In this document: positions 3,210 to 48,782 of the stretch, piece by piece
How the letters are laid out: each line of letters starts with the position of its first letter
How positions within the stretch are numbered: position 1 is the stretch's first letter
The notes under the pieces: generated by a model
The model's input: only the letters and a program-made list of their open reading frames with translations
Told to the model about the DNA's origin: nothing
Database searches by the model: none
Assembly (NCBI GenBank): GCA_947475525.1
Contig: CANJMI010000005.1
Span: 62,001 to 126,000 of the forward strand
Direction: 5' to 3'
Length of the DNA: 64,000 nt
Origin: Polyangiaceae bacterium
GTDB taxonomy: Bacteria; Myxococcota_A; Polyangia; Polyangiales; Polyangiaceae
Translations under genes and position numbers: made by a program

Positions 3210-4373
3210 ATGCCTTCGTTCGGAAAACTCCTTGGACTCGCCTTCGCGGCAGTCTCGACCTTGGTCGCAGGATCGGCTCGCGCGGACAAAATGGATCCGG
3301 CGCTCGAGCGCTTCGTCCTGAACAACCGCTGCCAAACGGGCATCAAGGGCGCCGGGAATTATTACGCGCCGACCGCCGGGTTCACGCGCTGCCTCCCGAA
3401 TGACCTCGCGTTCTCGAAGCTCGTCGCGCAAATGGGCGCCGCGATCGCGCCCACCGCCGCCTACTCCGCCCGAACGACCGGTTTTGGTGGATACAAGATC
3501 GGCATCCAAGGCGCTTACACGACGATCGATTCGGACGCGCCTTACTGGAAAACCGGCACGCAGGGACCCGTCGACAAGTCGACGAACCAGAGTTCGACCG
3601 TCAATCAAGACCCCGACTCGATGCTGCAGTTCTACAGCGTGCGACTCGCGAAGGGGTTCCCGTTCGGGCTCGAGGTCGGGGCGAGCTTCGGCCACCTCGT
3701 CAACACCTCGATGGTCGCCGGCGGCGGTGACGTGCGCCTCTCGCTCCTCGAAGGGTTTCGCAGCAACTCCGCGCTCGGCTTTCTTCCCGATGTCGCGGTT
3801 GCCGGCGGCGTCCGCACCATCACGGGGACTTCCCAACTCAAGCTCACAATCGCCTCGTTCGATGCGATGGTCTCGAAGCCCTTCCCGATCGCGGGGACGC
3901 TCGTTTTCCAGCCGCACGCGGGCTACCAGTGGCTGCGCATCTTCGGCGATTCCGGCATCGTGGACATGACGCCGAACACCGAAGCCGTTGGCCATTGCGG
4001 TTACAAGGGTGACAACAACCCGTCGAGCCCCGATGCCCGCAAAACGGCACTCGATGGGCAACCCGTCTGCGAAGGCTCGAGCGCCGACTTCAACAACAAC
4101 GTCGTCTTCGACCCCGTCCGGCTCACCCGCCATCGCCTCAACATCGGCGCGGATTTCCGTTTCCAGATGGTCTATTTCGGCGTCAATGTTCTCGCCGACC
4201 TGATTCCTGTAGCCGAAGCGAACACCGACACCAAGCTCGTGCCGGACGGCACCGATCCGAGCGCGACCAAGACGATCGCCGTGAACCCCTACGCCGATGA
4301 CCCACGCTCCGCCGAGGCGGACGCCGTGAAATCGCAGGTGACGGTGGCGATCGAGCTCGGCGCCGTCTTCTGA
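3210..4373 (+). CDS. Outer-membrane beta-barrel-like protein, secreted
   Basis: The 387-residue protein starts with a clear Sec signal peptide (basic start, hydrophobic LLGLAFAAVSTLVAG, cleavage after SARA). The mature part has alternating hydrophobic/polar stretches rich in Gly and aromatic residues, such as 'FQPHAGYQWLRIFG' and 'RLNIGADFRFQMVYFGVNV', and ends in Phe, as outer-membrane barrels often do. It has two Cys pairs and an 'FNNNVVFDP' loop. I do not recognise a named family. It lies 73 bp upstream of the acyl-AMP ligase in the same direction, so it may be transcribed with the acylation cassette, but the gap also leaves room for a separate promoter. Confidence 0.7.
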   Translation: MPSFGKLLGLAFAAVSTLVAGSARADKMDPALERFVLNNRCQTGIKGAGNYYAPTAGFTRCLPNDLAFSKLVAQMGAAIAPTAAYSARTTGFGGYKIGIQGAYTTIDSDAPYWKTGTQGPVDKSTNQSSTVNQDPDSMLQFYSVRLAKGFPFGLEVGASFGHLVNTSMVAGGGDVRLSLLEGFRSNSALGFLPDVAVAGGVRTITGTSQLKLTIASFDAMVSKPFPIAGTLVFQPHAGYQWLRIFGDSGIVDMTPNTEAVGHCGYKGDNNPSSPDARKTALDGQPVCEGSSADFNNNVVFDPVRLTRHRLNIGADFRFQMVYFGVNVLADLIPVAEANTDTKLVPDGTDPSATKTIAVNPYADDPRSAEADAVKSQVTVAIELGAVF

Positions 4374-4446
4374 GCTGCTGATTGTCGAACGGGGCCGCCG
4401 CTGAACGAACACGCCGCGCGGCGCATCCGAACGCAGGCGATCCACG

Positions 4447-6126
4447 ATGACCACTCTCACGCGTGAGTTGCTCGCCCATCGGCTCGCCTTCGCCGACGAC
4501 GAAGCGTGCGGAGCGCTCCCGGCACTGCAGCTCAGGCTCGGCCATGAGAGCACCCATCGAGAGGTGACCTTCACCGAGCTTGGCCGCCGAGCACGCGGAG
4601 CCGCATCCGCCCTCGCAGTTCACGGAGCAAAACCCGGCGAGCGCATCGCCCTGCTGATGCCGCACTCTCTGCTGCTCGTGGCTGCGTTCTTCGGCGCGAT
4701 CCGCGGAGGGATGGTCCCCTCGATCGTCGCCTGGCCGACAGCCAAGATGGACCCGGAGAAATACCGGCGCAACGTGCACGCTGTCGTCTCCCGCCTCGGC
4801 GCGCGCTTCATCGTCACCGACGCGCGCATGGCCGCGGAGCTCGGCGAATCCATCGGCGATACGACCGTCCTCGATGCGACCGCGCTCGACCAGGAGCTCG
4901 ACGACGGACCCGCACCCGTAGCCCGCGACGACGAAGACCCGCTCTTCATCCAGTTCTCGGGCGGCACGACGGGAACGCAGAAGTCGGTACCCATCACCGC
5001 AGCGATGCTCCACCGCCAGCTCGCTTCGTTCGACGAACGCATGGCGCTCACCGCAGACGACCGGGTGATCTCGTGGCTGCCGCTCTACCACGACATGGGG
5101 CTCGTCGCGTGCCTGCTCCTGCCGTTCGCGTTTCGCCTCTCGGTCAGCATGTTCGCGCCGATGGAATGGGTGCTGGATCCGAGTCGCTTTCTCGGGACGG
5201 TCGCTCGTGATCGCGCGACGCTCTGCTGGCTTCCCAACTTCGCCTTGAGCTTCATGGCCACGCGCACTCGGGCGGCCGAGGTCATCGACCTCTCGACGCT
5301 GCGCGCGGTGATCAATTGCAGCGAGCCCGTCCGCGACGAGAGCATGCGTGCGTTTCGCGAGCGATTTGCCGCGAACGGACTCAATCCAACCGCGATGCAT
5401 GCTTCGTACGCGATGGCGGAGGCCACGTTCGCCGTGACGCAATCGGTGTGGAGCGATCCTCCACGCACGTTGCGCGTTTCGCGCGAGAGCCTTGGACGAG
5501 GCGTCGTCTTGCCCACCGAGAGCGGAGAGCGCGTACTCGTTTCGTGCGGCGCGCCTCTCACGGACGTCGAGGTGCGCATCTCCCCGGGAACGGCCGAAAA
5601 CGACGTTGGCGAGATCGAGCTTCGCGGCCCGTTCATGATGGACGACTACCTCGCGAGCGACGACCCACCGGCTCGTTGGGCGTTTGACGCCGAAGGTTGG
5701 TATCGCACCGGCGACCTTGGTTTCCTGCGCGAGGGGCACCTCTACGTCACCGGTCGCAAGAAGGACGTCATCATCATCGGCGGCGTGAATGTGTTCCCCG
5801 AAGACATCGAGCAAGCGGTGTCGGACGTCGCAGGACTTCGCGCCGGTCGCGTCGTCGCAATGGGAATCGAAGACGTGGCGGCCGGTACCGAGCGACTCGT
5901 GGTGGTGGCTGAAGTCAACGCCGAGGCCGAGCTTGAGAACGCCGACCGAATCGAGACAGCCATCCGACGAGCCGTCGTTACGGTTGCCGGTGTTGCACCG
6001 AACCGCGTGTTTGTCGTGCCACAACGCTGGATCGTCAAGAGCACCGCAGGCAAGATTTCACGCGCCGAGACGCGCGCGCGAGTGTGTGAACGCTGGGACC
6101 AACTCGAAACGAGGGAATTTGAATGA
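4447..6126 (+). CDS. Fatty acyl-AMP ligase-like adenylating enzyme
   Basis: This 559-residue ANL-superfamily enzyme has the ATP-binding P-loop 'SGGTTGTQKS' at residues 171-180, 'WLPLYHDMGLV' near 210-220, the 'YAMAEAT' adenine/substrate motif at 321-327, 'GWYRTGDLG', and the hinge 'VTGRKKDVIIIGGVN'. A late Lys in 'STAGKISR' is the adenylation lysine. The wording of these motifs is closer to fatty acyl-AMP ligases (FAAL) than to D-alanine ligase DltA or acetyl-CoA synthetase. It should make an acyl-adenylate and load it on the adjacent ACP. It overlaps the ACP gene by four bases (ATGA). The chain length or nature of the acyl group is unknown. Confidence 0.85.
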   Translation: MTTLTRELLAHRLAFADDEACGALPALQLRLGHESTHREVTFTELGRRARGAASALAVHGAKPGERIALLMPHSLLLVAAFFGAIRGGMVPSIVAWPTAKMDPEKYRRNVHAVVSRLGARFIVTDARMAAELGESIGDTTVLDATALDQELDDGPAPVARDDEDPLFIQFSGGTTGTQKSVPITAAMLHRQLASFDERMALTADDRVISWLPLYHDMGLVACLLLPFAFRLSVSMFAPMEWVLDPSRFLGTVARDRATLCWLPNFALSFMATRTRAAEVIDLSTLRAVINCSEPVRDESMRAFRERFAANGLNPTAMHASYAMAEATFAVTQSVWSDPPRTLRVSRESLGRGVVLPTESGERVLVSCGAPLTDVEVRISPGTAENDVGEIELRGPFMMDDYLASDDPPARWAFDAEGWYRTGDLGFLREGHLYVTGRKKDVIIIGGVNVFPEDIEQAVSDVAGLRAGRVVAMGIEDVAAGTERLVVVAEVNAEAELENADRIETAIRRAVVTVAGVAPNRVFVVPQRWIVKSTAGKISRAETRARVCERWDQLETREFE

Positions 6127-6362
6127 GCGAGGAACTGGAAGCCATCCGTGAAACGGTGTCGCGGCATCTGCGGCGCAAACCCAAAAACTTCGACGACACG
6201 ACAGCGATTGTGTCCGGGGGCCTCATCGACTCGATGTCGCTCATCGATGTGATCCTCGATCTCGAGGCCGCCACGGGCGTGCGGATCCCTGCGAGCGAGG
6301 TGCAGCCCGACGACTTTGACTCAATCGCCATCATCGCCGCCACGGTGGCGCGCTTTCGCTGA
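6123..6362 (+). CDS. Acyl carrier protein
   Basis: The 79-residue acidic helical protein has the 4'-phosphopantetheine attachment motif 'GLIDSMSL' with Ser37. Its size is typical for a free-standing carrier such as ACP or DltC. Its start overlaps the stop of the acyl-AMP ligase (ATGA) and it ends four bases before the next gene, so the three are almost certainly co-translated. Its role is probably to accept the acyl group from the ligase and present it to the MBOAT protein. A holo-ACP synthase is not in the window. Confidence 0.9.
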   Translation: MSEELEAIRETVSRHLRRKPKNFDDTTAIVSGGLIDSMSLIDVILDLEAATGVRIPASEVQPDDFDSIAIIAATVARFR

Positions 6363-6366
6363 CACG

Positions 6367-7563
6367 ATGGCAACGGAGCCGGCCGCCCCTGAATCGAACC
6401 GCCCGCTCTCGGGCCTGCGCCTGCTCGGCCTCGCGGTCGCGACGCTCGTGTGCATCACCGCGTTCGGGCGCGCAAACCTCCTGGAGAAAGCCGCAACGAA
6501 ACTCACCGGCGAAGAGGCTCTCTTCGTCACGCCGCCACCCGAACCCGACGCGTGGGACGAGAAACGCGGCGCCGAGCTTCTGACTACATATCGCGCGCTT
6601 CCCGCGCTCCCCGCGGGTGCGCGCCGGATTGTGATGCTCGGCAACTCGCAGCAATACACGGTGCCGCCACCGACCGGCACGCAGACTCCGCACAACCTGA
6701 AGCCACGCATCACGAGCATGCGCCTCGCCGCAAGCTTGGAAGCGGAGGCCCCAACAAGGTTGCGCGTCTACAACGGCGCCAGCGACAACCAAAATTTTTC
6801 CGAGGCGCTGTGGCAAGCGCTCTACTGGCTCGAAGTCGCGCCCGCGAAGCCGACCGCGTTCATTCTGCAAGCGAGCTTCGATACGCTGCGGAAGACCGGC
6901 ATTCGAGCCGGATACCAGACGCTCCTTGGCGAGCCACGCTTTCGGGACGCCCTGCGCGCCTTGCTCGCGAAGCGCGAACGCCCTTACCACCCGGACTGGA
7001 TCGGCGCCGAAAAACAGTGGCGCGAGCGTGCGGCGAGCCTCGCCGTCGAGTCGAGCGACGACGCCAACGAGTGGAAGCAATGGTCGCCCGAACCCATGCT
7101 GCGCGCCGCGATGAACCACACCGAGCTCTTCCGACGTCGCGAAGAGAACAAGGGGTTTTTCCTGGGAACTCTCTACGCGATTCGCGTGCGAGCGCTCGGC
7201 ATCAGCCCACGCACGAAGCGCCACATCGCGGGTGCGCCGCTCGAACAGAACCTCGCAGCTCTTGGCGACCTGCTCGCGCTCGCGAGAGAGCATGGCTGCG
7301 CGCTCGTCGTCTACAACGCCCCCACGAACCCCGCCGTCGACATGTTCTACGCTGACGAATACTCCGCGTATTTGGAGAGGTTGCGCGCCCTCACGGCAGC
7401 GCACGGCGCCACGTTCGACGATCTCGGTCGGGCCGTCCCCGCCGAGCACTGGGGCTACTTAATCGACGGTCCCGATCCCATCCACTTCGACGAAGTAGGC
7501 CACGCGATCGTGCACGAAAAGCTCCTCGGGCCTTTGCGCTCGAGCCTTGGGATGGGGCGCTGA
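6367..7563 (+). CDS. Membrane-anchored SGNH/DltD-like protein
   Basis: The protein (398 aa) has one N-terminal membrane segment around residues 17-33 and a large extracytoplasmic part. 'IVMLGNSQQ' puts a Ser (94) in the place of the SGNH nucleophile, and 'DPIHFDEVGH' near the end gives the D370-x-x-H373 pair of block V. This is the layout of DltD, AlgJ/AlgX and related partners of MBOAT transferases. It would complete acyl transfer to an acceptor outside the membrane. I chose ATG 6367, four bases after the ACP stop; an in-frame ATG at 6316 lies inside the ACP gene. Overall similarity to a named family cannot be judged by eye. Confidence 0.72.
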   Translation: MATEPAAPESNRPLSGLRLLGLAVATLVCITAFGRANLLEKAATKLTGEEALFVTPPPEPDAWDEKRGAELLTTYRALPALPAGARRIVMLGNSQQYTVPPPTGTQTPHNLKPRITSMRLAASLEAEAPTRLRVYNGASDNQNFSEALWQALYWLEVAPAKPTAFILQASFDTLRKTGIRAGYQTLLGEPRFRDALRALLAKRERPYHPDWIGAEKQWRERAASLAVESSDDANEWKQWSPEPMLRAAMNHTELFRRREENKGFFLGTLYAIRVRALGISPRTKRHIAGAPLEQNLAALGDLLALAREHGCALVVYNAPTNPAVDMFYADEYSAYLERLRALTAAHGATFDDLGRAVPAEHWGYLIDGPDPIHFDEVGHAIVHEKLLGPLRSSLGMGR

Positions 7564-7566
7564 CCG

Positions 7567-8985
7567 GTGCTGTTCACGAGCTTCACGTACGTCCTTTTTC
7601 TGTGCGTGGTCATCCCGATCGTGAGGCGTACGGAAGGCGTGTGGCGTGAGCGCGTGTTGCTTGCGGCGAGCCTCGTCTACTACGCCGCGTGGGACGTGCG
7701 CTTCCTCGTGGTGTTGCTCGCGTTGGGCGTGTTCACTTTCGCGGCGGGCCGTCGAATCGCCGCCGCACGCGAGGCAAAGGCGCGACCTCGATTCGCCACG
7801 GCCACCGCACCCATCGCCGCGATCCTCCTCGTGCTCGCGGCGTTCAAGTACACCCGCTGGCTCGTCGACATCGAAAACGGGCTCTTCGGGACTGCGTTCA
7901 CGCTGCCGAAGCTCATCCTGCCGCTCGGCATCTCGTTCTTCACTTTCGAATGCGTGAGCTACCTGCTCGACGTGCAGAAAGGGGCCGCCGAGCTCTTGCC
8001 GCTGCGGCGCTTCCTGCTCTTCCCGACGTACTGGCCCCACTTGGTCGCGGGCCCGATTTTGCGCATCAAGGAATTTACTCTCGAGCTCGAGAATTTGCGG
8101 CGGCCAACGTGGCGAGAGACACTCGCCGGACTCGACCGCGTCGTCATCGGACTCGTCAAAAAAGTCGTCTTCGCCGATTCGCTCGCGGTGTTCGTCGACC
8201 AGGGCTTCGGCGCGACGCCGGGCACGGTCGGCGGAGTCGACGGGTGGGCGCTCACGGTGGCATTTGCTCTGCAAATCTTCTTCGACTTTTCGGGCTACAG
8301 CGACATCGCCATCGGCGTATCGAGGATGGTCGGCATTCGCATGCCCGAGAATTTCAACCTGCCGTACCACGCCGAAAGTCCCAGCGACTTCTGGAACCGT
8401 TGGCACATGACGCTCTCGCGTTGGATCCGCGATTACCTGTTTTTTCCGCTGAATCTGCGCGCAGGCAGGCGCGTCTGGCTGCGTTACGTGTTCCTCGTCC
8501 TCGTCATGACCCTGGTCGGTCTGTGGCACGGCGCGGGTGCGGGCTTCGTCGTTTGGGGGGCGTGGCACGGCACATTGATGGTCCTCCATCGCGTGTTGCA
8601 AAATCGCATCGGACGCCTCGACGACGGGCCGCGCATTCCGCTTGAGAGGCTCGGGCGGCTCGTGTCGCTCGTGCTGCTCGTGGCAGGTTGGGTGCCGTTC
8701 CGCGCGCCGACGCTGGCCGCCGCGGGCGCGATGCTCCGCGCCATGTTCACGCTGCGCGGACTACGGCCGGCGTACTCGATAAACGACTACTTGCTCGTGC
8801 TCGCCTGCATCGTTGGCTACGTCGTCGTCTCCCCACGAGTCGAGCGGTTCGTACAACGTGAGCCGCAAGGTCCGAACGTCGGTGCCGTTGCCTTCTGGGC
8901 CCGCGCGCCCCTCTACGCGCTCGCGGTCCAGTTGCTGTTCATGTTCGACCGTTCGAACGTCGCGTTCATCTACTTCCAGTTTTGA
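7567..8985 (+). CDS. MBOAT family O-acyltransferase (DltB/AlgI-like)
   Basis: The 472-residue polytopic protein starts with GTG three bases after the preceding stop. It has the MBOAT hallmarks 'LGISFFTFECVSYLLDV', 'FFDFSGYSDIAIGVSRM', 'ESPSDFWNRWHMTLSRWI' and the catalytic-site segment 'LVGLWHGAGAGFVVWGAWHG' with the conserved His at 321. DltB and AlgI pass acyl groups from a cytoplasmic carrier across the membrane to an extracytoplasmic acceptor. With the ligase, the ACP and the SGNH partner it forms a complete four-part transfer system. It is the last gene of the run; a convergent rnc follows. Confidence 0.93.
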   Translation: MLFTSFTYVLFLCVVIPIVRRTEGVWRERVLLAASLVYYAAWDVRFLVVLLALGVFTFAAGRRIAAAREAKARPRFATATAPIAAILLVLAAFKYTRWLVDIENGLFGTAFTLPKLILPLGISFFTFECVSYLLDVQKGAAELLPLRRFLLFPTYWPHLVAGPILRIKEFTLELENLRRPTWRETLAGLDRVVIGLVKKVVFADSLAVFVDQGFGATPGTVGGVDGWALTVAFALQIFFDFSGYSDIAIGVSRMVGIRMPENFNLPYHAESPSDFWNRWHMTLSRWIRDYLFFPLNLRAGRRVWLRYVFLVLVMTLVGLWHGAGAGFVVWGAWHGTLMVLHRVLQNRIGRLDDGPRIPLERLGRLVSLVLLVAGWVPFRAPTLAAAGAMLRAMFTLRGLRPAYSINDYLLVLACIVGYVVVSPRVERFVQREPQGPNVGAVAFWARAPLYALAVQLLFMFDRSNVAFIYFQF

Positions 8986-37177: not shown

Positions 37178-40100
37178 TCAGACGTTCAACTCGTCGAGCA
37201 TCGCGTGCGCTGGCTCGAAGTGCGGGTCTGCCGCGATGGCGCGTTCAAGGTTGTGAATCGCCTTCTTCGTGTCGTCCATTCGAACGAGGACCTTCGCCAT
37301 GCCGACGAACACTTCCGCCTTAACAACGGCCGAGCCCTCGTCCAACTTCTGAAGCAGCAGGGCCTTGTAGACCGTCTCCGCTCGCTTGAGATGCTCCGCC
37401 TTGGCCGCGCCGTCGGTGGCCGAGTCATGCATCGCGAGCGAAATCCGTCCGAGCTCCGCGGAGACCTTCAGATTCGCGGGGTCGAGCTTGCGGGCCGAGT
37501 CGAGCTCCTCGAGACACGCGGCCTCCTCGCCCCTCGCGAGCTGCACCGCCGCGATACGGACATGGATGTCGGCGAGCTCTTTGCTCCGCTTGCCGCCAAA
37601 CGAGCCCACGACCTTCTGCAACATGCCGAGCGCGTCATCCGCTCGACCCGCCGCTTCGAACGCAGCGGCCAGTGCCAACATCAGCTCTCGACTCTCCGGG
37701 TTCAGGTCGAACGCCTTCTCGAGCAAGTCGGCCGCCGAGCCGTGGTCGCCGCGCTCCTTGGCGTGGACCTCGGCTGCGCGACGGTAGAGCACCTCCCGCA
37801 CTGTCGCATCCTCGCCTTCATCCGCTCGCTGCGTGATCAAGGTTGCGAGCTCTTGCCACATCTTGAGCTTGGCATAGATAACCTCGAGCGCTTCGCGGAG
37901 CGCGCTCACTGCCGCCGCACCGAGATCATCCGTCACCAACGCAACTTCGAGTGCCCTCGAGGCGGCTTCGTCGTCGTCACCGTGCAGATCACGAGCCTTC
38001 AATGCAAGCCGCAGGACATCACTCGTCTGTGCACCATCGAGCAGCCGTTCGTACGTCTCGGCAGCGTCCGTAGTGCGGCCTTGCGCTTCGTACAGGCGAG
38101 CGAGCGCCTCGAGCGCGGGCCGGCATTCGGCATCGGCATCGAGCACCGCCAAGCACCCATCGATTGCGCGGTCAACATCATGCAGACGCGTCTCGCATAG
38201 GTCGGCGAGCCGCAACCGCAGCGTGAGCCCACCTTCACGGTCGCCCGTTTCGCGAGCGACGTCGATTTGCCTCTCGACCAACTCCACCAGCTCATCGTCA
38301 CGACCGCTCTTTTCGAACAGCTCGGTCAGCAGCGCAACCGACCGTGGATGCCCTGGGACCTCATCGAGGACCGCCGTCAGACGCTCGATAGCATCGGAGG
38401 GCGAATCGAGTTCCTCGAGAGCAATACGTGCGCTTTCGAGACGCAATTCCACCCGCGCATTGGAGTCAGCCTCGCCCTCAACTAAGCGTTCGAGGAGCCG
38501 CACGAGATCTTCGAATCGACGCCCGGCAGAGTAGAGCCGGCGCAGAGCCGTCGCCGCCACACCGTCGGACGCATCGTCTTCAAAGGCGTGTTCGTAGAGC
38601 TCAATTGCGGCCTTCCGATCGTCGAGCTTTTTCTCACCCACGACAGCTGCGGCATGGCGCAAACGCCGCAGCTCGTCCGACTCGCTCGTCAGATCGATTC
38701 GCCGCTTCAAGAGCTTGAAGAGCTCTTCATCGGCGCCTTTTTGCTCGCAGAGCTCCGACAGTTCAGCCAGCGCCCACGCATCATTGTCCGAGGCGGCGAG
38801 CATCTCTCGCAACACGACCTCGACGAGCTCGAGATCGTGGAGCGACGTCTCGGCCAATTCTTTTGCCTCGCGCCGCACCTCGCTCGCCTCGCGATCAACG
38901 GAACCGCCACCGTTCTCGATCAACTCCGCGAGCTTGCGAAGCGTGGCTACGAGTTCCCGGTCACGCCCCTGACCCCGCTGCAGGCTCTCGAGACGGACGA
39001 GCGCACCGGCGCACTCGGGATCTTGCCCAAGTGCGGCATTGAGCGCGTATTCCGCGAGCTCGATTTCCTCGACGTTTTCCTCGTACCAGGTGGCGACGCG
39101 CAGGTAGACATCACGGGCGAGATCGGCCCGAATCCCCTCGGACGACGCCGGCTCCGCGACGGCCTTGGCAAGCGCGGAACCAAGAGCCTTCGTCACCGCA
39201 TTTCCGGCCCGGATCCAGGCGCGCGCGCCATCGTCGCCGGCACCGTTGATGCCGGCCAAACGCTCGAGTTGCTCGAGAACGTCTTCGTCGACCGGCCCAT
39301 CGGCAAGCGCGAGTTCGACGGCGCGTTGAGCGGCAGCCGGGTTCTCGTTCTCCTCTTCGAGTACTTGCGCAAGCTCGAGGCGGAGGCGGAGGCGCTCGGT
39401 GGTGAGTGTGGTGTGGTCGATGCGCTTGTTGCGCAAGCGAACCCGCGAGTCGCCGTCCCCTGCTGCGCGGTACAGGCCGTCGAGGATCTCGGAGACGCGC
39501 TCAAACATCTCGCGGTCTTCGGTGAGTTGCTCGAGTTTCTGTATTGCCGCCGCATGATCCGGCGCAAGCTCGGTGCAGCGCTCGAGTTGATCGACGGCAC
39601 CTCCGAGTTCGTGAAAGTGATCGATGCTGAGCACGGCGAGGCGGTAATGCAATGCCGCCCGAGCCGCGTCGTCGGGCTCGTTTTCGAGCCGCCGCTCGAG
39701 GATGCCAGCGAGCCGCTGATTGTCGGCACTCGCGACGTACAAGCGGTCGAGCGCCGCGAGCAGTGCGGCCGGTGACTCCGATTGCTCCGCCGCCTTCCGA
39801 TACGCTTCGGTCGCTCGCGCAGTGTCGCCAAGGTGAGTCTCAGCGAGGATGCCGAGGCGCTCGTAGAGGTCTGCTTGGGCCGCCGCGTCGTAAACCTCCG
39901 GTGCCAACCTCTCGAGCGCGTCGGCGTAGTTTTTGAAGTCAGCCGTCGCCTCGCACAGACGCTCGATTTCATCGTGAAGCCCAGCGTCCGTCGGAGTGCC
40001 CTCCGAGTAGACCTCGAGAAGCGCGCGAATCGCGGTGTCGCGCGCGCGTTCGAGTGCGTCGAGTTGCTCTTCTAAAATCCGCGCGATGCCAAGCAAAGTC

Positions 40101-43100
40101 TCCGCACGATCGAGTGCATCGGCCTGTGCCAAGACGCGCAACTCCAACACCTCGGTGAGCTCTTCGAACCGGCCCCCATTGGCATAGATGGGCTCGAGCA
40201 ACGCCGTCACCTCGAGGCGCAGATCGGAGTCCTCGCGGCCGAGCTTATGCACAGCGGCGATGGCGTGTGCATCTTCCGGCGCTTCCTCGAGGACCTGGCG
40301 AAAGTGCTCGAGCGCATCGATTGAGCGACCAAGGACGTTCAAACACAGATCGCCGAGTCGATTGCGGATCGCCGCGCGTTTCTCAACCTCCCCGACCAAC
40401 TCCGCTTGGGCGCCCAGATTGTCGATGAGGTCGGACCAACGTTCACCGCTCGCGTAGAGTCGCTCGAGGGTCGCGAGGACCGGCAGGTCGTTTGGCGTAA
40501 TGTCGCGGGCCTGCTCCAGCATTCGCACCGCCTCGGTCGGCCGCTCGAGCTCGCGCTCATAGACCTCCGCGGCACGCACGCACAATTCCTGGCGACGCTC
40601 GTCGTCGTCCTCGGTGGCGTCGATGCGCTGCTCAAGGAGCAAAGCCAACCGACGTGGGTCGCGAGCTTCGTGGAGCCAAATCAGCCGGTCGAGCGCCACG
40701 AGCGACTGACTGTCGAGGAGAATCGCCTGGTCGAGGACGGCAACGGCCGCCTCGGAATCGTCGAGCATGTCCTGGAGAAGTTCGCCCAAACGCTCTAGAA
40801 GTCGCGCCTTCTGATCGGCATCGTCGGTCCGCTCGATCCGTTCGGCCAGGGCCTTCGAGAGCGTGTCCCAATCCGCGAGAATCACGCAAGTCGCGTCGAC
40901 GCGAGCGATCGCCCCTTCATCCATCGGATCGAGAACCGCGATCTCGACGAGGGCCCGGAGCGCACGACGAGCGTCATCGAGGCGCTCCTCGCAAATCTCG
41001 GCCACCGCCGCCAAGAAACCAAGCTTCACCTCGCGGTCGCTGACGGACGTGGCAGCCTTTTCAAACGCCGCGGCGAGCGCGTCCCATGACGAAGTCGACT
41101 CCGCGAGCCGTACGAGGTCACTGCGGACGTCATCGCTTTCAGGAGAGGCCTCGAAAGCCTCTCGAGCGACCGAAAACGCGCGAACGAGGTCGCGGCCACG
41201 GTTCTCCCAGAGAGCCGCCGACGCGAGCAGAATCGCCGCGCGATCGATCGGATCGTGTTGCAACGCGAGGCGGTGGTCGTTCAACGCGACGAGCTTGCGC
41301 CAATCGTCCGTGTGCTCGTACACGCGCCCAAGCACGTCGATCGCCCGCTCCTTGAGAGCCTCATCGTCGAGGAACTTCTCGAGCTCCTCGGTGGCCCCAG
41401 CGTGACCGGGGAGAACGTCGACGATTTGCTCGAGCTGGTCTAACGCGCGTTCGCGATCGCAACCCGGCCGTGCAAGCAGACGCGCAAGCTCAAGACGATA
41501 GCCCGCCGCCAGCTCGGGTACCCGGCTCCCCTCCGCACGCCTGTCGTAAAGCTCGGCGAGGTCCTCGTTCCTGTCTGCCGCGCGATAGAGTTCCGTCAGG
41601 TTATCGAGCGCGACGTCGTCATCGGGTGCGACGTCGATAAGGTCGCGCAAGCTTTGGATCGCATCCGCGTCGCGACCAAGCTGCCGTTGCAGCTTCGCAA
41701 TGACATGGTGGTAGACGACGCGCTTGTCGGCATCGACCAGCGCCTCGACACCGCGGCGGTAATGATCAACCCGTTGCTCCTTGCGGTCGAGGGTGACGAG
41801 CAACCCATCAATCGCGTGGAAAAGCGTCTCGCTTTCGGGATTGAACTCGTAGCTCCTGCGGTACCAGCGCAGCGCGTCATCGTGACGGTCGGCCATTGCG
41901 AACAGCTCGCCCGTCCGCTCACTGAGTTGCGCGGTCTTCTGATCGTCGGAGTCGACATCTTGCAACGCCGAAGCAAAAATTTCGGCAACACGCGCTTCCG
42001 CGCCACTCCCGATCAGACCCCCGAGACTTTCGAGTTTGTCCCAGATGCGCTCATTGCTCGGGTCTTCCCGCAGCCGGCGAGCCACCGTCTCGAGCGCCAT
42101 CGAGTAATCTTCGAGCTGCTCCTCGTAATGCTGAGCGAGCTTGTCGAGAAGCGTGCCTCTTTCGCTTGGATCTTGGGCGGCATCGACGCGCGCGGCGAGG
42201 GCAATCTTGAGCTTTTGCCAGTCCGCCATGCTTCGATAGACGGGCTCGAGCGCCTGCGCGATGTGGGCCTTGTGGTCGGGCTCGGTTGTCTTCTCGAGGA
42301 GTGCTTCGAGCGTGGCGATCGATGCGGTGTGCATCGGCTCGAGGTCGAGTGCCGCGTCGATCTCTTCAAGGGCGCGACCGACGTCGCCTACATGATCGAG
42401 GAGCACCACCGCGAGCCTCGACCGAAGTTCAGCCACGAGCTTCCCGCTCGCGGCATCGATCTGCCGCTCGAACAACGCCACGAGGCGATCGAATTGTTTT
42501 TCGGCTCGATAGAGCCCATCGAGCGCGGTCACCGCTTCGGCGTGAAGGGTGATCTCGAGGACCTCCTCGTATTTTCGGATCGCCGCGGAGTTATCGCCCA
42601 GCGAAGTGGCCTGCAGCTTCCCGGCGCGGAGCAAGAAAGCTACGCGGTCGCTGTCTTGAGCGCCCTCGGCGCGCACCACCAGAATTTCGAAAAGATGCCC
42701 ATCGTCGTTGACGGCGATGTAGAGCGCCTCGAGGGCAGAGAGGGCGTCGACATCCTCGGCTCTCGCGTCGAAGGCCGCGCGGTAATGGCGGATCGCGCGA
42801 GCGTCATCTTGTGCGTAAGTTCGTGCGATTTCACCGGCCCGGAGGCGGAGAGCGTGCTGAACGTCGGAATCGAGAACATCCTCGATGATCGCCTCGAACA
42901 CGTCGAGCATATCGCCATAGCGCTCGGTGACCTTGGCCAAGCGCTCGACAGACGCAATCCACGTAGCGAGGCTCGGCTCGGCGGTCGCCTCTCGCAGCGC
43001 TCGCGCCGCGTAATCGAATGCCCGTCGCGGGTTGTCGATGGAGTCCTCGGCGGTGACGAGGGCGCGATTGAGTATCGCGAGACGCACGCCGGTCTCGGTG

Positions 43101-46100
43101 GTCGATTCCGCCTCGATCTCGAGCACCTTGAGGAGCTTCTCCGCGGCCCCATCCGCGCGGTAAATCGGCTCTAGAATTTCGGCTGCCTCGCGCCGCACGT
43201 CCGAAGTTTCGTGGACGAGTAACGCCTCGAGACCCTCGCGCGCGTTCGAACGCGACCTGTCACGCTCAAGCACCACGCGGTACGAGGCCATCGCCTCGGT
43301 CGGCGCACCGAGATGCGAACGTCGTACGTCACCGAGCCGCACGTGCAGGTCGATGGCGGCGGCGTCCGCCGTAAGAGAGATCCAGGTCTCGATGGTGTCC
43401 GCGAGATCTTGGAAGCGCCCCGCCTTTTCGAGAAGACTCGCGAGCGGCTCGAGCACGGCAGGTTCGGGCCCAAACTCTTCCTGAACCACGCGCCAAGCGT
43501 CAACGGCCTCGGCGACCGCGTCGAGGTCATCGCCAAGAACGCGAGCGGCCTTCGTCATGCACCGCTTGCGTTCGGCAGCCTCGCCGGTGCCCTGCTCGAT
43601 GCGGCCCAGCACGTCGATGACGTCGCGCCAGCGCTTCGTGTCACCATAAAGCCGCTCGAGCGCGCTCAACGCCGCGAGGTCGGCTGGCTCGTCCGCGAGG
43701 CGCATGTTCCACGCGTCAATCGCGGCGGCGGGAGCAGCAAGCTCCACTTCGTGAAGCCCAGCGATGCGCGCAAACAGCTTGGCACGCTCGTCGGCTTCGG
43801 TGACAAGTCGAACCTCTGTGGACAACGTCCCGGCGAGGCTCGCGTGGTCTCCGCGCTTCTCGTAAATAGTGGAGAGCGACTGGGCCGCCGGGATCACAAT
43901 CAACGCATCCTCGGGATCGACCGAGAGAGTTTCCCGCAGCAATTTCTCTGCGCGATCGTCGTCACCGAGCTCGACCCGCCACACTCGCGCCGCGGCCATC
44001 AGAAGCTCGCCACGGGCTTGCTGCGCCTGGCAGCGAGCTGCGGCCTCGGTGAGGGCGGAGGCCACCTTCGCATGCTCGCCGATTCGCTGTCCGACGTGGA
44101 TGAAGCGCTCGCGCAAGACCGCGTCCTCCGGTTCGAGAGGAACGAGGTCGGCGAGTGCCGCAAACGCGGCGGCATCGTCCTTGAGGCGCTCGTCGCGCAA
44201 GGTCGCAAGACGACGCAGGAGCTCGCGGCGCTGGTCGTCCGAGACGGCACCCTCGAGTCGCACCGCGATGATTCGGGTCAGATCGCGAATGGCATCGCGC
44301 ACCTCGTAGACGCTATCGAGTAAGGCCGCTGCGGGCTGCCGCAACGCGGCAACGGAGAGGCACTCCTCGGCGAGCTCACGCGCCTCGGAATGTTCCGGAT
44401 GGACCTCGAGCACGGAGGCCAGATGCGGCATCACGCGGTCGTGTTCCTTCACCGCGTGCAAGTAGAGGTCAGCGAGCTGCAGCCGGATGCCAACGACGGT
44501 TTCGTCCGGCGCCGTCTCAAGGCGTTCCTCAAGCAAATTTGCGAGGTCTTTGAAACGGTTCTGTCGCGAGTAGAGACGCGCAAGAGCATCAACACCGTCG
44601 GCATGAACCGAGTCGATGGCGTGGATCCGCTCGTAGTAAGCAATCGCCTTCGCGTCGTCGCGGAGCAGCTCCTCGGCAAGCCTGGCCGCTTGATGGAGAC
44701 GCTCAATGCGCGTCCCGTCATCCTCCGCGTGTTCGATGGCGCGGGCGTAAAGGGCTTCGAGGTCGCTCCAACGCTCTGCACCATTGAGGATGGATTTCAG
44801 GCGCGAAAAAGCGCGTTCGTGCCTGGTGTCGAGCGCGAGAACCTGCTGCAAGTAAGGGACCGCACCCTCGGCGTCGCCGAGTTGTTCCTCGTGCAGTGAG
44901 GCCGCGCGCTCGCACAGTTCGATGCGTAGCTCCGAGGAAAGCAAGGTTACCGCACCTCCGTCCGCTGACCCTTCTGCGAGGTGTAGGCGGTAGGCCTGCG
45001 CGAGATCCGTCGGCCGTCCCGCGACGGTGGCAAGCCGCTCGGACCGATCCCAGAGCTCATGGTCCGTTGGCTCTTCGACGAGCGCGCTGAGAACGACATC
45101 GAGCGCGCCGGTGGCATTCGACAAATCGCGTTCAAGGGCGTCGGCGAGGCTGCCGCACAGCGCGAGACGCCGCGGGAGAGTCTCCTCGTGCTCGAGCATG
45201 ACGCGCAGCGCACGCACTCGATCGACTGCCTTGTCGGTCGCGTGGTAGTGCCTTTCGAGCACGGTCGCCGCCTTGGCGCGGACGGCACCCGCCATCGGCG
45301 CGGGAGCGGCAGCGGGCGCCACGGTCAGCGATTCGAGAATGGTGATCGCACGGTCGCACTCGGGATCGAGTTCGAGCGCCCGAACGCAAGCTTGGAACGC
45401 ATCTTCCGGCGACGACAACCGCTCTTGGTAGAGCGTCGCGAGCTCGGTTTCGAGGCGGACCCGGGCCGCCCCCAACTCGGCGTCCCGATGCGCGCCCATG
45501 ACCACGGCTGCGCGCCCGTAGTCCTCCGTTTCGAGCAGCAGACGCGTCAACTCGGCGAGCGAACCGGTCCGCGTCGCGTCCTCGTTGAACACGCGCTCGA
45601 GCAGCTCGATTGCCCGTCGCGGTTCGCCAAAAACGTCTTGCTCGACCTGCGTCCATTCTTCGAGTGCTTCAACGCGCGCGAGGCCCGAAAAGCGGCTCGC
45701 CTTGAGCTCAAAAAGCCAACGCAGATCGTCTTTGCGCGCGGTCGAACGCAGCAGCTGATCAAACGTCGCAACCGTCGCGACGTCGCTCGGGTCGCCTTCG
45801 ACGAGCCGGCGGAAGATCGCCACCGCTTCATCGAGCTTGCCTAGGTGCTGCGCGTAGACATCGGCGAGCATCGACTCGAACACCCGAGCACGCGGGACAT
45901 CGTTCGCACTCTCGGCTAGGCGAGCGCGGAGGACCTCGATAAATGGAGCCCAATCGGACGCCTGCTGAGACCAGTCACGGAGGCGTCCTAGTCCCTCTTC
46001 ATCGGGGCGAATTTCATACGCTTGACGAGCATACTGGAGGGCGGTGGCCTTGTTTGCGAGCTGCCCGCCCGTGATGCTCGCCATCTTGTGAAGGATCGCG

Positions 46101-48538
46101 ATCTTCTCGTCGAGGCTCTCCGTCGCGCCGAGCACCACGGCGTGGAGTCCAGGCAGGCGCGACCATTTGCCTTCCTGCTCGTAGAGCGGGAGTAGCGCCG
46201 TCGCCGCCTCCAAATTTTTAGGCTCGACCGAAAGGATTCGCTCGTAAGAACGCGCTGCGCGCTCCGGTGCACCGAGTCGTTCTTCGTAAAGTCGAGCCGC
46301 ACGAAACGAGAGCCCAACCTTCTCGAGCTCGGGCTCGGTTCGATCCGCCGTCGTCGAGAGGAAGTCGGCGAGGCCCTCCCAATCGTTTTGCGACGCGTAG
46401 AGCTCTTCGAGGCCGTCCCAGTCGCGAGCCTCGACGAACGATTGACGAAGTACGCGCAGTGCGCGGGTGTGACCCGGCGAAAGCTCGAGCACGCGACGCC
46501 AGCTTCGATTGGCGGCCTTGGTGTCGAGGAGCTTCTCGGCCTGAAGCGCGCCGAGCTTCTGCAAGAGCGCGACCTTTTTCTCGACGTCGCCTTGCTCGAT
46601 CCGAGCCTCGAGCACGAAGGCCGCCGTCTCGAAATCTTTCTGGCGCTCAGCTTGCTTATCGAGCGCATCGAGGACCCCCTCGGTTTCGGGCGCCTCGGTG
46701 TAAACCTGGCGCCACAATCGGGTCGCGTCGTCGCCCTTTTCGAGGCGTTCCGCGGCGAGCTTCGCCATCTCGCGAAGGACGGGCACGCGCGCGGCCCCCT
46801 CCACCTGTGCGAGCTGCTTTTCGTAGAGTTCGTAGAGCTTCGTCCAGGTGCGTCGTTTCGGGTAAAGCTCGATCAGCTGATCGCGAGCTTCCGCGTCGTC
46901 GCCCGTCGCTTCCAGGAGCGACTCATAGGCCGCGATTGCATTCTGAACGTTGGAAAATTGTTCCAGCCAACGCCGCGCCACGGCGCGCAAGAGTTCGATG
47001 CGCTCGGCCGCGTCATCGGTGATGTCGGCGAGCTTCTGCTGCGTGCTCAGCAAGTCACGCCATCGAGTGAGCGTCTCGTAGACGGCGATGAGGCCGCGCA
47101 CGGCTTCGACGTTGCGGTCGTCGTGCTGCAAAATTTGGGTAAGAACGGTGAGGAGCGCGGTGTCGCTCTTCAGTCGGTCCCGATAAATTTCCGCCATCTG
47201 GCGCAAGATCACGATGCGGGGCGCGGCGTCCTCTTTCGGAAGGCGCTGCAAATCCTGCCGGTAGAGCTCGACCAGCGCGTTGTATGCCTCGGTCTGCAGG
47301 TAGAGTTTCTTCAGCTTCTCGCGTGCATCGACATCGTTTGGATCGCTGCGGAGAATCGTCTTGTACTGCTCGATCGCCTGCTTCGCGTTCTCGAGACTCT
47401 CGGCAAGCCCCGCGATCTCGTCGGCGAGTTTGCGCTTGAACTCATCGTCACTGCTCGCGCGCTGCGCATCGGTGAGAATCGCCATCAAACGCGCGGCGTC
47501 CTCCTTGTTGCGGCATCGCTCGCGAAAAAACCGCAGCATGCCCGAATGCGTCGGGTCGCTCCGCCGCACCTTCTCGAAATAGGGCTCCGCGCCATCGGGG
47601 TTCTCGAGCGCCTGCCAGTTGAGCATCGCGACTTGGACCCAGACACCAAACTCCTCGGCTTGCTTGACGATGCCGGACGCGATCATGCGCTCATAAAGCG
47701 CGACCAACGGTGCCCACGATTCATTCTGCGTATAGATTTCACGCAAGAACGCGACAGCGACGGCGTTTCCCGAGTCGAGCTGGAGTAGCGCCTCGTGCGC
47801 GGCGATCGCCTCCGCCTCATCGGACAGACGGGTGCGGCGAATGCAAGCGCACCGCAATGCGGCAGCCACTTTGTCGCCCTTGGCCGGCGCAACGGAAGAC
47901 AGCTTAGCGAGTGCGTTTGCGGCATCGCCCCAGCGCTCGAGTTCCTCGAAGACGATGGCCACAAGCCCGAGGGCTCGACGGTTATCCGGATCGAGGGCGA
48001 GCGCGCTCTCGAGGTGCTCGGCGACCCGATTCCGAGTGGCCTCGTCTCGCGCGGCGTGGCGCAACATCGTGTCGCCGGCCGCAACCAAGAAGCGCGCCTT
48101 TCGCGTACCGTCGGCGGTATCGCCCGCGTCGACGAGCAGCTGCGCGACTGTCGCTTCCCAGCGCTCCCGCTGAGCGAGAATGTCGGCAACGGCGGCCTTC
48201 GCCTTCGCATCGTCCGGACGGGCCGCGAGGGCTCCGCGGAAGGCAACGAGAGCGTCATCGTCCCGGCACAGCTCTTCGTGGAAGATGCGCGCCCGGAGAA
48301 GCTGCTTCGACGCGATCGCGGAGGCTCCGTTAGAGAGGGAGAGTTCGAGTTCAAGAAGACGCGCGGCCGCGTGCCAGGAGTGCTGCTTCTCGTGCTCGAG
48401 CCGAGATCGCTCAAGCTCCCGTGCGACCGCTTCTCCGCCGTTATCGGCGACGACATCCTGAACCTCCGCCCAAGCGGAGGCGTTTTGCGGATCGGAGACC
48501 AAGGCCACGAGGGCCGTGCGGATCGTTTCGACACTCAT
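37178..48538 (-). CDS. Giant TPR-repeat protein (about 3786 residues)
   Basis: The single uninterrupted frame starts at ATG 48538, with GGAG at 48544-48547 as ribosome-binding site. It starts [16 protein letters not shown] and is a solenoid of tetratricopeptide-like helical pairs almost throughout, with typical units such as '[18 protein letters not shown]' and '[20 protein letters not shown]'. There is no signal peptide, membrane segment, kinase or other domain that I can see. Such a solenoid should be a large cytoplasmic scaffold. The repeats vary in sequence, so internal recombination is not the main source of length. Function unknown. Confidence 0.9.
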
Positions 48539-48547
48539 AGTTGCTCC

Positions 48548-48562
48548 GGCTGGTGACCAGCC
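48548..48562. promoter_or_regulatory. Perfect dyad upstream of the giant TPR gene
   Basis: GGCTGGT and ACCAGCC flank a single G, centred 17 bp upstream of the ATG and touching the GGAG ribosome-binding site. It may be a repressor site, or a hairpin that hides the ribosome-binding site. Another possible long hairpin (GGGACC 48648-48653 with GGTCCC 48671-48676) lies further toward acs. The rest of 48539-48782 shows nothing else. Confidence 0.35.
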
Positions 48563-48782
48563 ACAGACCACACATTTGTTCAGGAAATTCCGAGAACGAG
48601 ACGTGATCGACGCGGCATTAAACCTGCGCTTGGGCGTGGTTGCAACCGGGACCTTGGGGCCTATGACCGGGGTCCCGCCCGCACCTCCGCGCATCGCGGG
48701 AGGCGCGCATGGGGGTCGTCGCCGAACGACGCGTCTTTCGACCTACCGCCCTCCTCGTGACCGAGCTTTACTCCTCAACATC

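Follow-up and report, generated by a model that had tools for sequence, protein, structure and literature searches.

Four adjoining genes in a 64,000-nucleotide stretch of DNA from a Polyangiaceae bacterium (the window) probably encode a carrier-protein-dependent machine for surface acylation, with chemical steps that we infer from the Dlt and PatAB systems. The genes specify a fatty acyl-AMP ligase (FAAL), a carrier protein (ACP), an SGNH-fold protein, and an MBOAT acyltransferase that ends in a candidate acyl-shuttle peptide.

RESULTS

The four genes form a tight single run on the plus strand (4447-8985) in the order FAAL, ACP, SGNH, and MBOAT, with spacings of -4 bp (a 4-bp overlap) between FAAL and ACP, 4 bp between ACP and SGNH, and 3 bp between SGNH and MBOAT (Table 1). 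The initial annotation had placed all four correctly in coordinates, order, and spacing, and every residue that it named is present (ACP Ser37; SGNH S94, D370, and H373; MBOAT H321). Its interval, 3210-8985, covers the cassette and also takes in a barrel gene (3210-4373) that is not a member. The ORFs listed in the window show no PKS or NRPS gene beside the cassette.

Table 1. Positions in the window of the cassette genes and of the putative shuttle peptide
Feature	Positions	Strand	Details
FAAL	4447-6126	+	559 aa; ATG start 4447, stop 6126; A10-type lysine K536
ACP	6123-6362	+	79 aa; ATG start; phosphopantetheine site Ser37 (IDS37M), codon 6231-6233
SGNH-fold protein	6367-7563	+	398 aa; ATG start; N-terminal membrane anchor; S94 6646-6648, D370 7474-7476, H373 7483-7485
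MBOAT acyltransferase	7567-8985	+	472 aa; GTG start; H280 8404-8406, H321 8527-8529
C-terminal acyl-shuttle hexapeptide F467-I-Y469-F-Q-F472	8965-8982	+	3' end of the MBOAT gene

The barrel gene encodes an outer-membrane-barrel-like protein with no Pfam match. Of 39 relatives from the order, 31 have exactly one copy of it, most of them without this cassette, and in relatives it adjoins trmL and often RNase III. In two sister genomes (G286, locus L221, and G287, locus L223), a trmL-like gene, the barrel gene, and RNase III are consecutive, with no cassette between them. Because the barrel gene is conserved throughout the order and the sister genomes have it without the cassette downstream, we rejected it as a partner of the cassette, and the suggestion that it is the export partner or the acceptor is unsupported; it is a core gene of the order, as yet uncharacterised. 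The same observations define the four genes, with the barrel gene excluded, as an accessory unit that separates the barrel gene from RNase III in the lineages of the window and of its congener G284, in which the identical four-gene order lies at the same genomic place (locus L029). Between the window and G284, dN/dS was 0.15 for FAAL, 0.09 for ACP, 0.15 for SGNH, and 0.11 for MBOAT, values within or slightly above the range of the neighbours trmL, barrel, and RNase III (0.06-0.10). Purifying selection acts on all four cassette genes.

Elsewhere in the window, two adjoining small genes on the minus strand (1809-2249 and 2246-2557) encode a putative PIN-domain toxin and a putative Phd/VapB-type antitoxin, and a 3838-aa open reading frame on the minus strand (37178-48694) may encode one giant protein.

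Against NCBIfam, the ligase scored 307 bits with PRK09192 (1.9e-91), 249 bits with MbtM, and 225 bits with FadD32 (1.5e-66), all among its nine best models, which span 210-349 bits; the single best, PRK07768, is FAAL-like although it is named a CoA ligase. Generic CoA ligase models reached at most 156 bits and the amino-acid adenylation model 103 bits, the latter being exceeded by the FAAL models by about 120-250 bits, and DltA models were absent from the 25 best NCBIfam matches. FAALs of known structure (7r7g, 8e-55; LpFAAL, 3kxw; EcFAAL, 3pbk) aligned along nearly the whole ligase, including the FAAL-specific insertion region, which is present and is crossed by the solved FAALs with small gaps only. 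Judged from its sequence, the ligase is a FAAL and neither DltA nor a CoA ligase. No characterised member was found in the clade of the window FAAL.

The ACP matched PF00550 at 5e-6, gave weak matches to the OlsHI-ACP and DltC models of NCBIfam, and is 86% identical to that of G284. The SGNH protein gave only a weak, sub-threshold GDSL match in Pfam (PF13472, 3e-4). Its AlphaFold model, with a mean pLDDT of only 67, matched TesA (Z 15), PatB (7tlv; Z 13.6), and, across 256 residues, DltD (6pfx; Z 13.8); generic GDSL enzymes score as high as DltD. The structure predicted for this third protein is an SGNH fold, and S94, D370, and H373 are invariant across six homologues with identities as low as 22%.

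The MBOAT matched PF03062 at 1e-19. Its best solved structure was DltB, both by sequence (6bug/8jem) and by fold (E 7e-12, TM 0.64/0.72), and its H280 and H321 align with the conserved histidines of DltB. With TIGR04091, the DltB equivalog, it scored 179 bits, below the cut-off of 375 bits; because another MBOAT encoded in this genome, one that lies outside the cassette, scored 167 bits, this match does not discriminate and we rejected it as evidence of Dlt membership. In an alignment of 17 cassette MBOATs, H280, H321, Y469, and F472 were invariant.

The window MBOAT ends in NVAFIYFQF followed by the stop codon, and the last six residues, which had been overlooked, fit FxYxxF. PatA acetylates the tyrosine of a C-terminal FxYxxF peptide, and the peptide then serves the SGNH partner (PMC12148441). 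In Dlt, the same motif is carried by the microprotein DltX, because DltB lacks two C-terminal helices (PMC12148441). In the model of the window MBOAT, two additional helices at the C-terminal end (405-429 and 440-463) lie ahead of FIYFQF, and a scan of the window for a separate DltX found no tiny ORF ending in the motif; the motif is on the MBOAT itself. In a tree built by a quick method from 238 columns, in which some deep forks are unsupported, the window MBOAT lies inside a fused-shuttle AlgI/PatA-type clade (SH-aLRT 99) and the structural DltB falls outside it, with FAAL coupling on both sides. The window system is thus a hybrid, because its MBOAT bears its own C-terminal FxYxxF and groups with fused-shuttle AlgI/PatA-type MBOATs.

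All seven Myxococcota FAALs that score above 325 bits (G000, G284, G041, G286:C80, G274, G223, and G068) lie in MBOAT cassettes, and none of nine lower-scoring myxobacterial FAALs inspected as controls does. The seven cassettes contain ACP, FAAL, and MBOAT genes, with or without SGNH, in at least three gene orders; that of G274 is split across two contigs. The idea that the MBOAT-adjacent FAALs are exclusive does not quite hold, since a lower-scoring FAAL (G268:C492) adjoins an MBOAT and the clade also contains nested FAALs that have no MBOAT beside them.

When the alignment of cassette FAALs was used to scan GTDB species genomes, 80 loci were recovered, 27 of them with an MBOAT no more than 6.5 kb away; being seeded with FAALs from cassettes, the scan is no measure of their frequency among all FAALs. 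Together with seven others, FAAL-ACP-MBOAT linkage, often with SGNH, was found at 34 loci, a set that includes one sequence under two records (L050 and L167). The cassettes belong to the Myxococcota, Acidobacteriota, Chloroflexota, Ignavibacteriota, Planctomycetota, and Candidatus Lindowiibacteriota. The largest group found is in the Chloroflexota, which makes the earlier wording of a "Gram-negative set" too narrow. In a quick tree, all 34 cassette FAALs fell in one clade (SH-aLRT 97-99), and FAALs without an MBOAT neighbour, from Magnetococcales and Alphaproteobacteria, are nested within it.

Several loci are recorded here in their own right. FAALs that carry long extensions (about 815-1010 aa) and have no MBOAT neighbour occur in Magnetococcales, Acidobacteriota, Nitrospirota, and Proteobacteria (L177, L181, L183, L190-L194, L196, L197, L200, L202-L204, L206, L208, and L209). 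In an Anaerolinea sp. (L141:2410-9590), two fused-shuttle MBOATs alternate with two candidate SGNH proteins, followed by ACP and FAAL. The record L167 (CAMBEV010000022.1), titled Nannocystis exedens, has a cassette FAAL and MBOAT identical to those of G223; G223 is placed in the family of the window genome, with which that title seems at odds. Leptolinea sp. HRD-7, the best plasmid match, was considered as a named cultured host and rejected; it has a FAAL, but the 8 kb around that gene contain no annotated acyltransferase.

Among cassette MBOATs of the window kind, most have a Y..F motif at the C-terminus. Where the MBOAT has no such motif, all 16 complete cassettes have an ORF of 34-122 aa that ends in FxYxxF or WIYQGF and that adjoins the MBOAT gene, overlaps it, or lies a short way from it. 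The WIYQGF ending is found in 12 of 12 Anaerolineae cassettes, on ORFs of 34-54 aa directly before the MBOAT (L133, L136, L137, L142, L143, L147, L149, L150, L153, L160, L161, and L169), and FDYARF, FDYGRF, FLYGRF, or FIYGNF is found in four myxobacterial cassettes. One of the WIYQGF microproteins was compared with NCBIfam and gave no match. In size, hydrophobic stretch, and motif, the small ORFs are DltX-like, with some start codons uncertain. Because a motif-ending ORF lies close to the motif-less MBOAT in 16 of 16 cases, the shuttle step is tied to the FAAL cassettes, and the MBOAT tree separates the fused and split kinds.

The sister genome G286 has a split-type FAAL cassette (L057) and also a locus (L030:2216-6759) in which an SGNH protein (39% identity) and an MBOAT (53%; SH-aLRT 99) group with the window pair. 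The ligase beside this pair is an amino-acid adenylation domain, and the carrier protein is a different one. The adenylation domain scored 340 bits, above the cut-off, with DltA models at 245 bits, and it has the FDxS motif of a true A-domain; L030 is a possible aminoacylating version of the cassette. The two ligase types are distinct, because FAAL models win in the window and the congener uses a true A-domain with FDxS. That the same SGNH-MBOAT pair stands beside another ligase and carrier indicates that ligase and carrier are the donor side of the transferase pair, that this module probably sets the acyl group, and that the activating module is exchangeable.

DISCUSSION

The initial annotation had read the genes as a Dlt-like relay with a FAAL replacing DltA and had named three points on which this reading could fail. 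The ligase groups with FAALs and not with D-alanine or CoA ligases, the SGNH residues S94, D370, and H373 are invariant within a predicted SGNH fold, and the neighbourhood survey found the cassettes recurring. This core idea has held up; what has to be revised is the transferase, as the MBOAT is not simply DltB-like.

By analogy with Dlt and PatAB, the FAAL would convert a carboxylic acid (a fatty acid is the likeliest) to its acyl-AMP and load the acyl group onto the phosphopantetheine arm of ACP Ser37. On the cytoplasmic side, acyl-ACP would give up this group to the MBOAT, which, using H321 and H280, would move it along the MBOAT funnel to Tyr469 in the enzyme's C-terminal FIYFQF. From Tyr469 the group would go to Ser94 of the SGNH protein, which is anchored in the membrane and would use its S94/D370/H373 site to esterify a hydroxyl of a periplasmic or surface acceptor. 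The overall reaction would be ACP-dependent fatty acyl transfer to an extracytoplasmic acceptor. The use of ACP we infer from gene linkage, because most fused-shuttle MBOATs have no ligase nearby and are thought to use acyl-CoA.

The cassette flanks comprise 102 proteins, mostly of housekeeping families and with glycosyltransferase domains in three or four, so genomic context does not name the acceptor. This setting, together with the position of the window cassette alone among conserved genes, favours a relay as proposed with a small lipid or secreted metabolite (a glycolipid, a lipopeptide, or a lipid headgroup) as acceptor in place of a polymer. We regard such an acceptor as rather unlikely, since known MBOAT-SGNH pairs modify envelope polymers (PMC12148441) and the relatives in G223 and G274 lie in polysaccharide gene clusters, the only two cassettes seen there.

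It is improbable that the MBOAT-SGNH pair carries out ordinary AlgI/PatA-like O-acetylation from acetyl-CoA, with FAAL and ACP forming a separate lipid or natural-product module that shares the operon. The window cassette genes overlap or touch, FAAL-ACP recurs by the MBOAT, often with SGNH and in varied orders, in six phyla, and a second ligase type stands in for the FAAL at the same SGNH-MBOAT pair; nor does a PKS or NRPS gene appear by the cassette among the ORFs listed. These observations outweigh the use of acetyl-CoA by PatA (PMC12148441) and the finding that fused-shuttle MBOATs have no ligase within 1.5 kb at 26 of 30 loci. We give very little credence to chemistry equivalent to Dlt, in which the FAAL-like ligase would activate an amino acid such as D-alanine for surface D-alanylation as in Bordetella dra: the four-part logic is that of Dlt, DltB is the nearest solved MBOAT, and a Gram-negative D-alanylating locus has precedent (PMC4448142), but the margin of the FAAL models over the amino-acid adenylation model and the true A-domain with FDxS in the congener's aminoacyl version both speak against it.

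Surface acylation from a FAAL-loaded carrier, the reading that we prefer, crosses a division drawn among MBOAT-SGNH systems, between Dlt with a carrier-loaded donor and a separate DltX and the others with an acyl-CoA donor and a fused shuttle (PMC12148441). In the openly licensed literature, a scope that excludes subscription papers and leaves priority unproven, we found no paper naming "MBOAT" and "fatty acyl-AMP ligase" together. A 2025 review of FAALs (PMC11837247) contains neither "MBOAT" nor "polysaccharide," and the eLife lipocone paper describes a single MBOAT/SGNH association, in passages that name no FAAL. We put forward, at even odds, that the cassettes are a cross-phylum and so far undescribed class of carrier-dependent surface lipidation systems, in which FAAL-ACP is joined to both split-shuttle (DltB/DltX-like) and fused-shuttle (PatA/AlgI-like) MBOAT-SGNH pairs, the activating module can be exchanged for an aminoacyl one within one genus, and the cell writes fatty acids onto its outside by Dlt chemistry.

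In the wider family, donor module and shuttle placement vary independently, and the cassettes are a natural set for testing what fixes the acyl specificity of MBOATs. Should the acyl group be a fatty acid, these bacteria would esterify lipid chains onto acceptors outside the cytoplasm without the involvement of CoA, which, if true, bears on envelope building in Anaerolineae, Acidobacteria, and myxobacteria.

The Gram-positive Dlt system (DltX-A-B-C-D) shares with the window cassette a ligase, a carrier, an MBOAT with two conserved histidines, an SGNH protein whose predicted fold matches DltD over about 250 residues, and an acyl-tyrosine shuttle motif. It differs in that the window ligase is a FAAL and not DltA, the shuttle is fused to the MBOAT with no DltX, and the MBOAT scores 179 bits against a DltB cut-off of 375. 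The cassette would thus work like Dlt but is not a Dlt system, because DltA, a score above the DltB cut-off, and DltX were each looked for and not found. The dra locus of Bordetella pertussis resembles dlt. It is likewise a Gram-negative surface modification locus, and unlike the relay proposed here it transfers D-alanine. The D-alanine modification is described in PMC4448142, citing Taneja 2013.

A FAAL with the insertion region and a free-standing ACP also occur together as starter modules in pathways for polyketides, lipopeptides, and mycobacterial lipids; in the window, the ORFs listed next to the cassette include no PKS or NRPS, and acyl-ACP would be paired with a membrane acyltransferase. 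The O-acetylation systems PatA/PatB and AlgI/J resemble the cassette in the C-terminal FxYxxF of the MBOAT on extra helices, the SGNH partner, and the fused-shuttle clade, but they use acyl-CoA without a ligase or carrier (PMC12148441), both of which the window run encodes. The window cassette, with a donor side like that of Dlt and a transferase of the PatA/AlgI kind, fits neither class.
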